A stretch of DNA of 64,000 nt, from contig CALWUJ010000006.1 of NCBI GenBank assembly GCA_944384725.1, positions 24,604 to 88,603 on the forward strand, in the 5' to 3' direction. Below the pieces are notes generated by a model. It did not search any database, was not told where the DNA came from, and was given only the letters and a program-made list of their open reading frames with translations. The stretch is from an uncultured Agathobaculum sp. (lineage in GTDB: Bacteria > Bacillota > Clostridia > Oscillospirales > Butyricicoccaceae). How positions within the stretch are numbered: position 1 is the first letter of the stretch; every line of letters starts with the position of its first letter. The translations under genes were made by a program, and so were the position numbers. Of this stretch, positions 35,635-40,428 are shown piece by piece.

Positions 35635-35657
35635 ACTTTGTATTTTGGGAGTTTGTG

Positions 35658-38051
35658 ATGAATCGTTTAGGCGAAAAATCCTTAAAAACACTGGAATATT
35701 ATGAAATTCTTGAGCGGCTGGCCGCGCAGGCTGCGTCGGACGCGGCCAAAGCGAAATGCCGTGCGCTGCGTCCGCTCGATGACCATGAGCAGGCGCAGGT
35801 CTGGATGGATCAGACCACAGATGCGAAAAATCGTATGATCCGGCATGGCAGTCCCTCGTTCGGCGGTATCCGTGAGGTGGGTGCGATTCTGCTGCGCGCT
35901 GACCGCGGCGGTACGCTGAATCCGCGCGAGCTGCTCGATGTGGCAAGTCTGCTGCAAACCGCGCGCCGCGCATTGGTATATGATGCGGAGCAGGAGGAAA
36001 AGACGGCGCTGACGCCGATTTTTGGTTTGCTCACTGGTAACCGATCGCTGGAGGAAGCGATTACGACCGCAATCGTGTCCGAGGAGGAGATCGCGGACGG
36101 CGCCTCCCCGGAACTGCTGTCCATCCGCCGCGAGCTGCGGCGCATTTCGGGCAAGGTGCGCGAGACGCTCAATCGCCTGATTGCGGGCGAACGGTCGAAG
36201 TATTTGCAGGAAACCATTATCACCCAACGAAACGGGCGTTTTGTGGTGCCGGTCAAGGCCGAACATCGCGGCGATATTCCGGGTCTGGTGCACGATACTT
36301 CGTCCACCGGTGCGACGGTGTTTGTTGAGCCGCAGCAGGTGGTCGAGATCAACAACCAGATCAAGGTGCTCGAAGGCCGTGAGGAAGCCGAGATCGAGCG
36401 CATTCTTGCGGAATTGTCGAGCGAAGTTGCGAGCTATAAAAATGCGATCGAGCAGGACTTTGACGCGCTGGTGTCGCTCGATTTTGTGTTCGCGCGCGCC
36501 AAGCTGTCGTTCGAGATGAATGCAGCTCCGCCGGTGCTTTCGGATGGAAATGGCCGCTGCCGCCTGCTGCGCGCACGGCATCCGCTGCTGGATAAGGACA
36601 AGGCAGTACCGATCGACATCGCAATCGGCGGTGAGTATGATACACTGGTCATCACCGGACCGAATACGGGCGGCAAAACCGTGTCGCTGAAAACGCTGGG
36701 TCTATTGTCGCTGATGGCGGCATCCGGCTTGCACATTCCGGCGAATGAGCAGAGCGAAATTGCATTGTTTGAGCATGTTTACGCCGATATTGGCGATGAA
36801 CAGAGCATTGAGCAATCCTTGTCCACATTCTCCGCGCACATGAAAACCATTGTGTCAATCATGGATTGCTGCGGTCAGGGCGATTTGGTGCTGTTTGACG
36901 AGTTGGGCGCGGGCACCGACCCGGTCGAGGGTGCGGCGCTTGCGGTCGCGGTCATTGGCTATGCGCGCCAGATGGGCGCGTGTGTGGCGGCGACAACACA
37001 TTATGCGGAACTGAAAACCTTTGCGCTCACGACTGACGGCGTCGAAAACGCCTCGTGTGAGTTCAACGTGCAGTCCTTGCAGCCGACCTATCGCTTGTTA
37101 ACTGGTATTCCGGGCAAATCCAATGCGTTTGCGATCGCGGCGCGGCTGGGACTTCAGCCCACCATCATTGAGCGCGCAAAGGAGCAGGTTTCGACCGAGG
37201 ACGCGCGTTTTGAGGATGTGCTGGCCGAACTCGAACGCGAGCGCCGCCGCGTCGAACAGATGCGGGATGAAGCGGCGAAGATGCGTTCGGCGGCGCAGTC
37301 TGAACGCGATAAGATGCGCGCGGAGCGCGACGCGGCAGAAGAACGCGCAGATAAAATGCTGGAAAGCGCGCGCAGTCAGGCCGATCGCATCCTGAAGGAC
37401 GCGCGCATGACGGCCGAGACCGTCTTTGACGAGCTCGAGGATATGAAGAAAAAGGCACAGAAGAAAAACGCCGATCAGAACCTTGCCGCGGCCAAGGCCG
37501 CGCTGCGCGGTGTCATCACGCAGACCGAAAACGAACAGCGCCGCGGTGTGCAAAAGCGTGTGGTTGAGGCGGATGAACAGCGTCCGGTCAAGAAAGGCGA
37601 CCGTGTGCGGCTGCTGAATGTCGGCGGCGTGCTGGCGGATGTTCTTGCGCCTGCGGATAAGAGCGGTAATGTGCAGGTGCAGGCGGGACCGATGAAAATG
37701 GCGGTCAAGGAGAATGAACTGCGTCTGGTTGAACAGCCAAAAGCAGCGAAAAAGCCCGCACCACAGCCGCGGCGGAACGCACCCGCGCGCGAACTCAACC
37801 TGCGCTCGGCGGCGAGCGAGGTCGATGTGCGTGGTATGAGCGCGGAGGAAGCACTGTTTGAGGTCGATAATTTCCTGTCCCGTGCGATCATGGCGGGACT
37901 GCCGTCGGTGACGGTGATTCACGGCAAGGGAACCGGCGTGCTGCGAAATGCGGTGCAGCAGCATTTGCGCAGCAACAAGCGTGTCAAAAGCGTGCGCAGC
38001 GGTGTGTACGGCGAAGGCGAACAGGGTGTGACCATCGTGGAGCTGCGCTGA
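35658..38051 (+). CDS. mutS2: Endonuclease MutS2, 797 aa
   Basis: MutS2 acts against recombination or on stalled ribosomes in Gram-positive bacteria rather than in mismatch repair. The core and clamp helices lead to the ATPase domain with GPNTGGKT at residues 334-341, LVLFDELGAGTDPVEGAAL (Walker B/signature) and a long coiled coil (about 510-620, rich in Glu/Arg). A C-terminal Smr domain (about 715-797) shows VDVRGMSAEEAL and VIHGKGTGVLR. The N-terminal mismatch domain of MutS is absent, as expected. ATG at 35658 follows GGGAG; a GTG three bases earlier is possible. Confidence 0.95.
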   Translation: MNRLGEKSLKTLEYYEILERLAAQAASDAAKAKCRALRPLDDHEQAQVWMDQTTDAKNRMIRHGSPSFGGIREVGAILLRADRGGTLNPRELLDVASLLQTARRALVYDAEQEEKTALTPIFGLLTGNRSLEEAITTAIVSEEEIADGASPELLSIRRELRRISGKVRETLNRLIAGERSKYLQETIITQRNGRFVVPVKAEHRGDIPGLVHDTSSTGATVFVEPQQVVEINNQIKVLEGREEAEIERILAELSSEVASYKNAIEQDFDALVSLDFVFARAKLSFEMNAAPPVLSDGNGRCRLLRARHPLLDKDKAVPIDIAIGGEYDTLVITGPNTGGKTVSLKTLGLLSLMAASGLHIPANEQSEIALFEHVYADIGDEQSIEQSLSTFSAHMKTIVSIMDCCGQGDLVLFDELGAGTDPVEGAALAVAVIGYARQMGACVAATTHYAELKTFALTTDGVENASCEFNVQSLQPTYRLLTGIPGKSNAFAIAARLGLQPTIIERAKEQVSTEDARFEDVLAELERERRRVEQMRDEAAKMRSAAQSERDKMRAERDAAEERADKMLESARSQADRILKDARMTAETVFDELEDMKKKAQKKNADQNLAAAKAALRGVITQTENEQRRGVQKRVVEADEQRPVKKGDRVRLLNVGGVLADVLAPADKSGNVQVQAGPMKMAVKENELRLVEQPKAAKKPAPQPRRNAPARELNLRSAASEVDVRGMSAEEALFEVDNFLSRAIMAGLPSVTVIHGKGTGVLRNAVQQHLRSNKRVKSVRSGVYGEGEQGVTIVELR

Positions 38052-38188: not shown

Positions 38189-38217
38189 TTGACGAAATCG
38201 ACAAAAGAGGATAGACT
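38189..38217 (+). promoter_or_regulatory. Sigma-A promoter of the HPr-like gene
   Basis: TTGACG at 38189-38194, a 17-base spacer and TAGACT at 38212-38217. Confidence 0.75.
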
Positions 38218-38256
38218 ATATATAACGGATTTGAAGAAATAGGAGCGATGCAGATT

Positions 38257-38520
38257 ATGTATTCGAAAGAGGTACAGGTTACCAATCAGGTAGGCTTATA
38301 TGCCCGTCCCGCTACGTTTTTTATTCAGAAGGCCAATGAGTTCAAGTCGACGATCCTGGTAGAGAAGGAAGAGCGCCGCGTTAACGCGAAGAGCTTGCTC
38401 GGCATTCTGTCCCTGGGCATTACCAAGGGCACTACCATCAACCTGATCGCAGACGGCCCGGACGAGGAAGAGGCTGTTTCTGCTCTGGTTGAGCTGATTA
38501 CGTCCAACTTTACCGACTAA
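38257..38520 (+). CDS. HPr paralogue with Tyr15 in place of the catalytic His (Crh-like), 87 aa
   Basis: The fold is a clear HPr: GLYARPA at residues 13-19, NAKSLLGILSLG at 43-54. The histidine that normally accepts phosphate from enzyme I (His15 in GLHARPA) is Tyr15, so it cannot serve as a PTS carrier. The regulatory Ser46 is kept. This is the pattern of Bacillus Crh, which has Gln15 and acts only in catabolite control via Ser46 phosphorylation. The ATG at 38257 puts both residues at canonical positions; an ATG at 38248 is too close to AGGAG. It has its own promoter and terminator, and no ptsI is nearby. Confidence 0.88.
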   Translation: MYSKEVQVTNQVGLYARPATFFIQKANEFKSTILVEKEERRVNAKSLLGILSLGITKGTTINLIADGPDEEEAVSALVELITSNFTD

Positions 38521-38537: not shown

Positions 38538-38567
38538 AAAAGCGCCGAATTGATCGGCGCTTTTTTT
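38538..38567 (+). terminator. Intrinsic terminator after the HPr-like gene
   Basis: AAAAGCGCCGA pairs with TCGGCGCTTTT around five bases, with T run to 38567. Confidence 0.92.
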
Positions 38568-38604: not shown

Positions 38605-40428
38605 GTGACAAGGGAACAACTCAAGGAGCGTGTACGCCGTCTGCCGATGCAGCCGGGCGTGTATCTGCACAAGGACAAAACCGGCAAGGTGATCTATGTC
38701 GGTAAAGCGAAGCTGCTGCGCAACCGTGTATCCAACTACTTTCAGCCGCCAGAACGCCTGAACGCAAAAACCAGACAACTGGTCAGTCATATTGATGATT
38801 TCGACATTATTGTGACCGAAAGCGAATTTGAAGCGCTTGTGCTGGAAAACTCGATGATCAAAAAGTACAAGCCCAAGTATAATATCCTTTTGAAGGACGA
38901 TAAGGGCTATCCCTATATTCGGCTGAACACCGATGCACCCTATCCGGCATTTACGGTTGTTTCGCGTCCGGCACGCGATGGGGCGCGCTATTTTGGACCG
39001 TATCCGGGCCGTGTGGCGGCACGGCGGGCAATTGATACGATCAGCGAGGCGCTGCTGCTTAAGACTTGCGCGCGTGTGTTCCCGCGTGATATCGGCAAGG
39101 AACGGCCGTGCCTGAACCAGCATCTTGGACGCTGCTGTGCCCCGTGCACAGGAAAAGTCAGTCCGGAGGAATATCATGCGCTGATTCATCAGGCAATTGC
39201 GTTGTTTGAAGGCAATGCGAAGCAGTTGGAAAAAGAACTGACCGAGAAGATGAACGAAGCGGCGGAAGAATTGCAGTTTGAGCGTGCAGCGATGCTGCGT
39301 GACCGCCTGCGCGCCGTGCAAAAGCTGGGAACGCGGCAGCATGTGGTCGCAGGCGCGTTCGCGGAACTGGATATCATCGCGTTTGTGCAGGGGCAGACAC
39401 GGGCATGTGTGTGCGTGCTGCATTATGCGGGCGGCGCCTTGCAGGACAAAGAATATACGCTGTTCCACCTGACGGGCAGCGATCCGGCTGAGGTGCTTTC
39501 CTCATTCGTCAAGCAATATTATGCGCAGCGCGGCGCGGTGCCCAAAACCGTGCTGCTGTCGCACGAAATTGAGGAGCAGGACGCGGTCGGGGAGTATTTA
39601 TCCTCGATTGCGGAGCGCAAGGTCGAGCTGGCTGTACCGCAGCGCGGCGAGCGACGTGTGCTGACCAGACTTGCGGAGAAAAACGCACGCGAGGAGATCG
39701 AGCGGCGCGAAAAACAGTCCGAACGGCGGCATAAATCGCTCGAATTGCTGCAAAATGTGACTGGTATGCTGGCTCTGCCGCTGCGTCTGGAAGCGTATGA
39801 TATCTCTAACTTTGCCGGGCAGGATACGGTCGGTTCGATGGTCGTGTTTGTGGAAGGACAGCCGAAAAAAAGCGCCTACCGGAAGTTTAAGATCGCCTGC
39901 GCTGCCAACGGGCAGGATGACTATGCCTCCATGCGAGAAATGCTGACGCGCCGTGTGCAGCGATATGTAGATGGCGATGAGAAGTTTGCACCTTTACCCA
40001 ATGCGTTTCTGATTGACGGCGGCTTGGGGCACGTCCGCGTATGCAAAGAGGTGCTCGACTCGTTTGGACTGCAAACGCCGTGTTTTGGTATGGTAAAGGA
40101 TGATAAGCATCGTACCCGCGCTTTGGTCGCGCCGGATGGACGGGAGTTCGGCATCTCAGCCACGCCTGCATTGTTTGCGCTGATCGGACGGATTCAGGAG
40201 GAAGTGCACCGGTTTGCTATTGAGTATAACCGCAAGCTGGGTGGTAAAAAGGTGCGCGGCTCGACGCTGGACAAGATCCCCGGTGTGGGGGACAAGCGCC
40301 GCGCGGAGTTGCTGCATCATTTTGGCAGCATTGACAATATCCGCAAGGCAAGCGAACAGGAATTGGCGCGTATTTTGCCGCGCAATGCGGCGCAGGCGGT
40401 GTTTGATTATTTCCACAAGGAGGACTGA
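38605..40428 (+). CDS. uvrC: Excinuclease ABC subunit C, 607 aa
   Basis: UvrC makes both incisions in nucleotide excision repair. The GIY-YIG domain (GVYLHKDKTGKVIYVGKA, about residues 15-33), a UVR motif near 200-235, the RNase-H-like C-terminal nuclease with LEAYDISNFAG and DGGLGHV, and two helix-hairpin-helix motifs (DKIPGVGDKRRAELL) appear in the normal order. The start is GTG at 38605, nine bases after AAAGGAGG. rsmD begins three bases after its stop. Confidence 0.96.
   Translation: MTREQLKERVRRLPMQPGVYLHKDKTGKVIYVGKAKLLRNRVSNYFQPPERLNAKTRQLVSHIDDFDIIVTESEFEALVLENSMIKKYKPKYNILLKDDKGYPYIRLNTDAPYPAFTVVSRPARDGARYFGPYPGRVAARRAIDTISEALLLKTCARVFPRDIGKERPCLNQHLGRCCAPCTGKVSPEEYHALIHQAIALFEGNAKQLEKELTEKMNEAAEELQFERAAMLRDRLRAVQKLGTRQHVVAGAFAELDIIAFVQGQTRACVCVLHYAGGALQDKEYTLFHLTGSDPAEVLSSFVKQYYAQRGAVPKTVLLSHEIEEQDAVGEYLSSIAERKVELAVPQRGERRVLTRLAEKNAREEIERREKQSERRHKSLELLQNVTGMLALPLRLEAYDISNFAGQDTVGSMVVFVEGQPKKSAYRKFKIACAANGQDDYASMREMLTRRVQRYVDGDEKFAPLPNAFLIDGGLGHVRVCKEVLDSFGLQTPCFGMVKDDKHRTRALVAPDGREFGISATPALFALIGRIQEEVHRFAIEYNRKLGGKKVRGSTLDKIPGVGDKRRAELLHHFGSIDNIRKASEQELARILPRNAAQAVFDYFHKED

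Follow-up and report, generated by a model that had tools for sequence, protein, structure and literature searches.

A Tyr15/Ser46 HPr-like protein encoded between mutS2 and uvrC in Agathobaculum and its relatives, a probable HPr-kinase-only switch

The HPr-like gene between mutS2 and uvrC

The window, i.e., the whole stretch of 64,000 nucleotides of an uncultured Agathobaculum sp. that was analyzed here, carries on its forward strand a gene for an HPr-like protein of 87 amino acids (positions 38257 to 38520), as judged from its translation, its Pfam match, and its orthologues. The upstream neighbor is mutS2 (35655 to 38051) and the downstream neighbor is uvrC (38605 to 40428), both on the same strand, with uvrC being the syntenic anchor of the lineage. 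The sequence-only reading had described the gene as encoded alone and without ptsI, and its neighbors are indeed mutS2 and uvrC, at distances of 205 and 84 bases, respectively. The gene looks like a single-gene unit. A sigma-70-like promoter match upstream (TTGACG-17-TAGACT, 38189 to 38217, forward strand) is weak, scoring 9/12, with one such match found where 0.5 were expected. Downstream, an intrinsic terminator on the same strand (38538 to 38567) consists of AAAAGCGCCGA, a loop, TCGGCGCTTTT, and a T run, with a folding energy of -20.9 kcal/mol (z -4.4), and similar hairpins follow the gene in several relatives. The terminator scan did not list this hairpin because its T run pairs with an A run ahead of the stem, but folding detected it.

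The mechanically assigned open reading frame starts at 38248, nine bases ahead of 38257. The ribosome-binding site AGGAG (38241 to 38245, forward strand) lies only 2 bases before the ATG at 38248, but 11 bases before the ATG at 38257, and the latter layout is the same in the relatives, whose Tyr15 proteins begin with M[YF][ST][KQ]. Start 38248 was therefore rejected, and the earlier assignment of the start to 38257, with canonical HPr numbering, is upheld by the spacing and the N-termini.

The protein begins with MYSKEVQVTNQVGLYARPATFFIQKANEFKSTILVEKEERRVNAKSLLGIL and belongs to the HPr family, with the HPr domain spanning its whole length: PF00381 matches residues 3 to 82 with an E-value of 1e-30, and the TIGR01003 score is above the cut-off of that model. 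In HPr, His15 is the residue that enzyme I phosphorylates, and Ser46 is modified by HPr kinase in response to fructose-1,6-bisphosphate and phosphate. Codon 15 of the window gene (TAT, 38299 to 38301) encodes a tyrosine at the position that is histidine in the sister families, so that the phosphoacceptor of a PTS phosphocarrier HPr is absent. Codon 46 (AGC, 38392 to 38394) encodes the serine that is the HPr-kinase site in canonical numbering; its surroundings read VNAKSLLG, and Arg17 is intact. Translation and alignment thus confirm the combination of Tyr15 and Ser46 that had been noted before.

Conservation in the family and origin of Tyr15

The family is that of Agathobaculum, Butyricicoccus, and Intestinibacillus (Butyricicoccaceae), and we examined a sample of 61 of its genomes, consisting of the source genome and 60 relatives of at least 85% completeness. 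The Tyr15/Ser46 gene is present in 58 of them, in one copy each, and the three assemblies without it (G008 with one HPr match; G043 and G044 with none) are all fragmented. Tyr15 is encoded by TAT in 45 genes and by TAC in 13, and Tyr15 and Ser46 are both invariant in all 58 genes despite codon variation at the two sites, a pattern that is more than chance. A sequencing error at codon 15, against which the sequence-only reading had cautioned, is ruled out by these 58 genes and their two Tyr codons. Over the 58 genes, 46 of 86 positions are invariant, 45 of them being encoded by two or more different codons, and residues 10 to 24 are all invariant.

All 58 family Tyr15 genes adjoin mutS2 and/or uvrC (42 both, 12 uvrC, 4 mutS2), as opposed to none of the 75 family His15 genes, 5 of which lie at contig edges. 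A similar gene occupies the mutS2/uvrC locus in 38 of 54 cases from other families of the order (35 of 51 with His15 and all 3 with Arg15) and in 14 of 18 class-level orthologues. These uvrC-linked His15/Ser46 HPrs of the order and class share the locus of the window protein and are 55-82% identical to it. Position 15 is the only fully discriminating site, with Tyr in 58 of 58 family sequences versus His in 135 of 135 His15/Ser46 orthologue sequences, the latter being two sets that share some genomes, and the exchange from His to Tyr is one base change. The Tyr15 protein is, on locus and identity, the orthologue of the order's ordinary uvrC-linked His15/Ser46 HPr, altered at one codon family-wide. 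What had been described as a paralogue in a clostridial background is hence a real Tyr15 HPr, but not an odd single-genome paralogue.

Outside the family, no Tyr15 was found among the domains read, 69 from 54 order genomes and 67 from 44 class genomes, a few weaker matches being left aside. In named genomes, a scan from which 80 of at least 593 loci were kept gave 14 Tyr15 and 66 His15 loci, all 80 with Ser46; 11 of the 14 Tyr15 loci are from Agathobaculum, Butyricicoccus, or Intestinibacillus, and the other three are labelled Clostridia. A tree of 237 HPr domains, which had too few columns to be well resolved and was used only to count changes, required one change to Tyr15, or two when columns 15 and 45-46 were left out. 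Ser46 versus other residues required two changes on this poorly resolved tree, which suggests that the PTS-type HPr branched off long ago and is not a recent copy. The other branch has, in this family, lost His15 in addition, so that the split became two-sided.

Two further kinds of HPr-like proteins were observed in the order. The uvrC-linked HPr of its other families has His15, except that one genome in each of three families (G062 at L209, G085 at L217, and G112 at L211) has an Arg15/Ser46 orthologue and no enzyme I match; these are independent losses of His15. In addition, G095 encodes an HPr-like protein (L213, 2361-2588, reverse strand) that lacks the active-site loop, keeps the Ser46 helix (VDAKSIMGIFSLD), and is divergent from the normal HPr gene. 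By its residues, this protein is a kinase-site-only mini-HPr. Similarly shaped weak matches, which begin at position 19 or 20 of the profile, occur in 24 of the 54 order genomes, and the family search with a threshold of 1e-4 listed none.

Distribution of the two phosphorylation sites, enzyme I, and HPr kinase

The source genome (1.94 Mb in 47 contigs, 78% complete) contains two HPr domains at E<=10. The search for a second HPr with His15 that had been proposed earlier was thus successful, and the absence of any other HPr, which would have spoken against the earlier view, did not occur. The second HPr has 85 amino acids, with His15 and Arg46, and adjoins genes for a PTS EIIB and a glucosamine-6-phosphate isomerase; a nagA-like gene, named from its sequence, is nearby, so that the cluster resembles an N-acetylglucosamine PTS. 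A full enzyme I with three domains and an HPr kinase with both domains are also present. In this genome, a PHP-domain gene and a gene for a ROK-family sugar kinase come after hprK (L441, 8527-11480, forward strand), and a gene of this ROK family is likewise found behind hprK in regions from G001, G020, G037, and G041. No shared effector gene near hprK emerged in 18 regions, in only part of which hprK could be placed.

The family search gave 159 HPr matches in 59 of the 61 genomes, of which we read 133: 58 Tyr15/Ser46, 44 His15/Arg46, 28 His15/Lys46, 1 His15/His46, and 2 His15/Ser46. A few more His15/Ser46 proteins could lie among the 26 unread, lower-scoring matches. As 73 of the 75 His15 domains read lack Ser46 and the Tyr15 protein keeps it, the two phosphorylation sites appear to be divided between separate proteins in this family. 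An exception is G057, a genome in 390 contigs in which the Tyr15 gene and enzyme I occur together with two His15/Ser46 HPrs and HPr kinase gave no match (L086, L088, L126).

The His15 HPr without Ser46 goes together with enzyme I, being found in 50 of the 62 genomes that have enzyme I versus 1 of the 79 that lack it, a comparison in which the class genomes were partly chosen for an unusual residue 15 and are not random. Within the family, 40 genomes have enzyme I, and a His15 HPr was read in 39 of them; the remaining one, G024, has unread HPr matches, one of which lies beside its enzyme I. All 21 family genomes without enzyme I have HPr kinase, 19 have the Tyr15/Ser46 gene, and in 18 the Tyr15/Ser46 protein is the only HPr read. 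HPr kinase is present in 59 of the 61 family genomes, with no match in G009 and G057, and its P-loop reads GDSGVGKS in 42 of 44 readings and GDSGIGKS in two (30 family loci taken for the kinase plus larger regions, some genomes being read twice). Outside the family, 66 of 67 genomes with a Ser46 HPr have HPr kinase (53 of 54 in the order, and all 13 class genomes with a non-His15 protein), as compared to only 2 of the 13 class genomes in which no HPr matched at 1e-10.

Non-His15 Ser46 proteins were also found in 18 of the 80 genomes outside the family, with Q, E, N, R, K, or G at residue 15. Of these 18 genomes, 14 lack enzyme I, and each of the four with enzyme I also has a His15 HPr. However, more than loss of the PTS is needed to explain the change of His15, which is retained in 44 of the 58 non-family genomes that lack enzyme I, and the residue may have a role apart from enzyme I. 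Among the 54 order genomes outside the family, 41 have no enzyme I match, 53 have HPr kinase, and most keep a His15/Ser46 HPr.

CcpA, Crh, and the proposed role of the Tyr15/Ser46 protein

CcpA had been considered as the partner of the window protein, a suggestion that does not hold up in the Agathobaculum/Butyricicoccus family, where no recognizable form was found. None of the 61 family genomes and none of 80 other genomes passed the cut-off of the NCBIfam CcpA model, which the controls B. subtilis and L. lactis both exceeded. As this cut-off is a strict one (G159, which has the docking residues, reaches 335 versus 442), we inspected the HPr-docking residues of CcpA, which we take to be Asp296, Arg303, and Lys307. 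The three residues occurred together in none of the 30 best LacI-type family hits, which came from 30 of the 36 family genomes that gave any, versus 2 of 30 from the order and class; L318 did not align at the docking residues in this comparison. LacI-family proteins at 1e-40 were found in 35 of the 40 family genomes with enzyme I, and 20 of the 21 without enzyme I have no match to the CcpA model at 1e-40. These results make it unlikely that the family has a canonical CcpA, and very unlikely for the members that lack enzyme I, and the partner or target of the Tyr15/Ser46 protein is probably not CcpA.

It is therefore unlikely that the protein acts as a classical Crh, with its phospho-Ser46 form serving as co-repressor for a CcpA so divergent that the model misses it. 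The intact Ser46 helix and Arg17, the LacI-family proteins in the enzyme I genomes, and the strictness of the cut-off would agree with such a role, but no family genome exceeds that cut-off, the docking triad is missing from the family hits, and 19 of the 21 enzyme-I-less genomes keep the Tyr15/Ser46 gene even though 20 of these 21 lack a match at 1e-40. Rather doubtful, too, is the idea that the protein would carry two signals, one at Ser46 and one at Tyr15, with the tyrosine being phosphorylated in a regulated manner or serving as a new docking residue. It would fit the constancy of Tyr through synonymous codon changes in all 58 genomes, which amount to 13 genus-level groups, and the R, Q, E, N, K, or G found in other lineages lacking His15; yet residues 10 to 24 are all invariant in the family, so that the constancy of Tyr15 is not special, and a founder change with general constraint suffices.

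Continued service as a PTS phosphate carrier via another residue is very improbable: we saw nothing in its favor beyond a few genomes with many HPr copies, whereas a histidine phosphoacceptor is, as established knowledge has it, chemically required, and a His15 HPr is at hand in nearly all enzyme I genomes of the family. The least probable view is that of a PTS-dead, functionless relic heading for loss. The catalytic His is indeed lost, and the closely similar protein that is 55-82% identical has both sites, but more than half of the positions are invariant over 58 genes, nearly all of them with varying codons, and the gene tracks HPr kinase and is retained as the only HPr read in 18 genomes.

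The preferred reading, of a dedicated regulator, resembles Crh in its logic. In Bacillus and Parageobacillus, the crh gene is located in the rapZ-yvcK-whiA neighborhood, unlike the window gene between mutS2 and uvrC. Crh shares with the window protein the HPr fold, a residue 15 other than His, the kept Ser46 and its surroundings, and an HPr kinase in the genome, and among solved structures, Crh ranks second as a match, behind a dual-site HPr-related protein. However, residue 15 is Tyr and not Gln, and the score of 101.4 bits with NF010354, presumably the Crh model, is below the cut-off of 123. A coexisting His15 HPr, as with Crh, is found in the source genome and in the 39 enzyme I genomes, but not in the 18 without enzyme I, and the CcpA partner is not recognizable by sequence. 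Moreover, Crh is a side duplicate, whereas the window protein is orthologous to the dual-site HPr of its order, and the partner HPr has lost Ser46 in this family, whereas Bacillus HPr has both sites. The Crh-like logic proposed by the sequence-only reading is accordingly supported insofar as a paralogue without His15 keeps Ser46; it does not cover the other side of the split, since the His15 partner has Arg46. In sum, the Tyr15/Ser46 protein is of the Crh kind in logic, by convergence, and differs in origin, partner HPr, and probable output.

Dual-site clostridial HPrs (Clostridioides difficile, Tepidanaerobacter, Thermoanaerobacterium) have the same fold and Ser46 region as the window protein, but His at the active site. 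The PTS-linked Arg/Lys46 HPr, likewise of HPr fold and occurring in enzyme I genomes, represents the opposite half of the split, with His15 kept and Ser46 lost, and forms a deep separate clade in the poorly resolved tree. An HPr of C. acetobutylicum reportedly has a poorly kept Ser46 region, and C. cellulolyticum is said to have Crh without HPr. We found no description of a Tyr15 HPr or of a two-sided split of HPr in the open-access literature, subscription papers being mostly outside this search. C. difficile HPr is described as phosphorylated at the Ser46 equivalent (PMC8730811), and dual-site clostridial HPr with its active-site His as also serving the PTS (PMC4374699, PMC4634974). The Crh literature likewise describes Crh as having Gln15 and being phosphorylated by HPr kinase, and unphosphorylated Crh as inhibiting methylglyoxal synthase in Bacillus (PMC9631020, PMC13130090). 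This direct inhibition is one model for how the Tyr15/Ser46 protein might act on a target.

The best reading is that the Tyr15/Ser46 protein would be an HPr-kinase-only, PTS-blind switch. With a probability of roughly 0.7, we propose that the uvrC-linked, HPr-kinase-responsive HPr of the family was made a dedicated regulator by the exchange of His15 to Tyr, with a separate PTS carrier and a non-CcpA output. The single exchange would make the protein unable to take phosphate from enzyme I. As known from the enzyme, HPr kinase/phosphorylase would phosphorylate Ser46 when glycolytic intermediates are high and dephosphorylate it when they are low, and the phospho-Ser state would then signal carbon status only. 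Where a PTS exists, the separate His15 HPr encoded with PTS genes would be the phosphate carrier for sugar uptake and, with Arg or Lys at residue 46, would be invisible to HPr kinase. The cross-talk of a dual-site HPr would thereby be removed. The phospho-Ser form would probably exert direct protein-protein control of a non-CcpA target, such as a permease, an enzyme, or another regulator. More tentatively, and with odds slightly short of even, HPr may be fully split in this family into a PTS-only carrier and a kinase-only switch, and HPr kinase signaling in much of the order may be independent of PTS and CcpA, as the switch and its kinase are retained in genomes that have neither enzyme I nor CcpA-like regulators.

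It has not been clear from Bacillus Crh why a second HPr persists alongside an HPr that has a Ser46 of its own. With the sites on separate proteins family-wide, these bacteria would offer a natural system in which the PTS state and the HPr-kinase state can be read apart, and the members without enzyme I and CcpA would allow asking what HPr kinase does without its two textbook outputs. The setting is that of gut butyrate producers, in which the usual two jobs of one protein are apparently divided between two genes.
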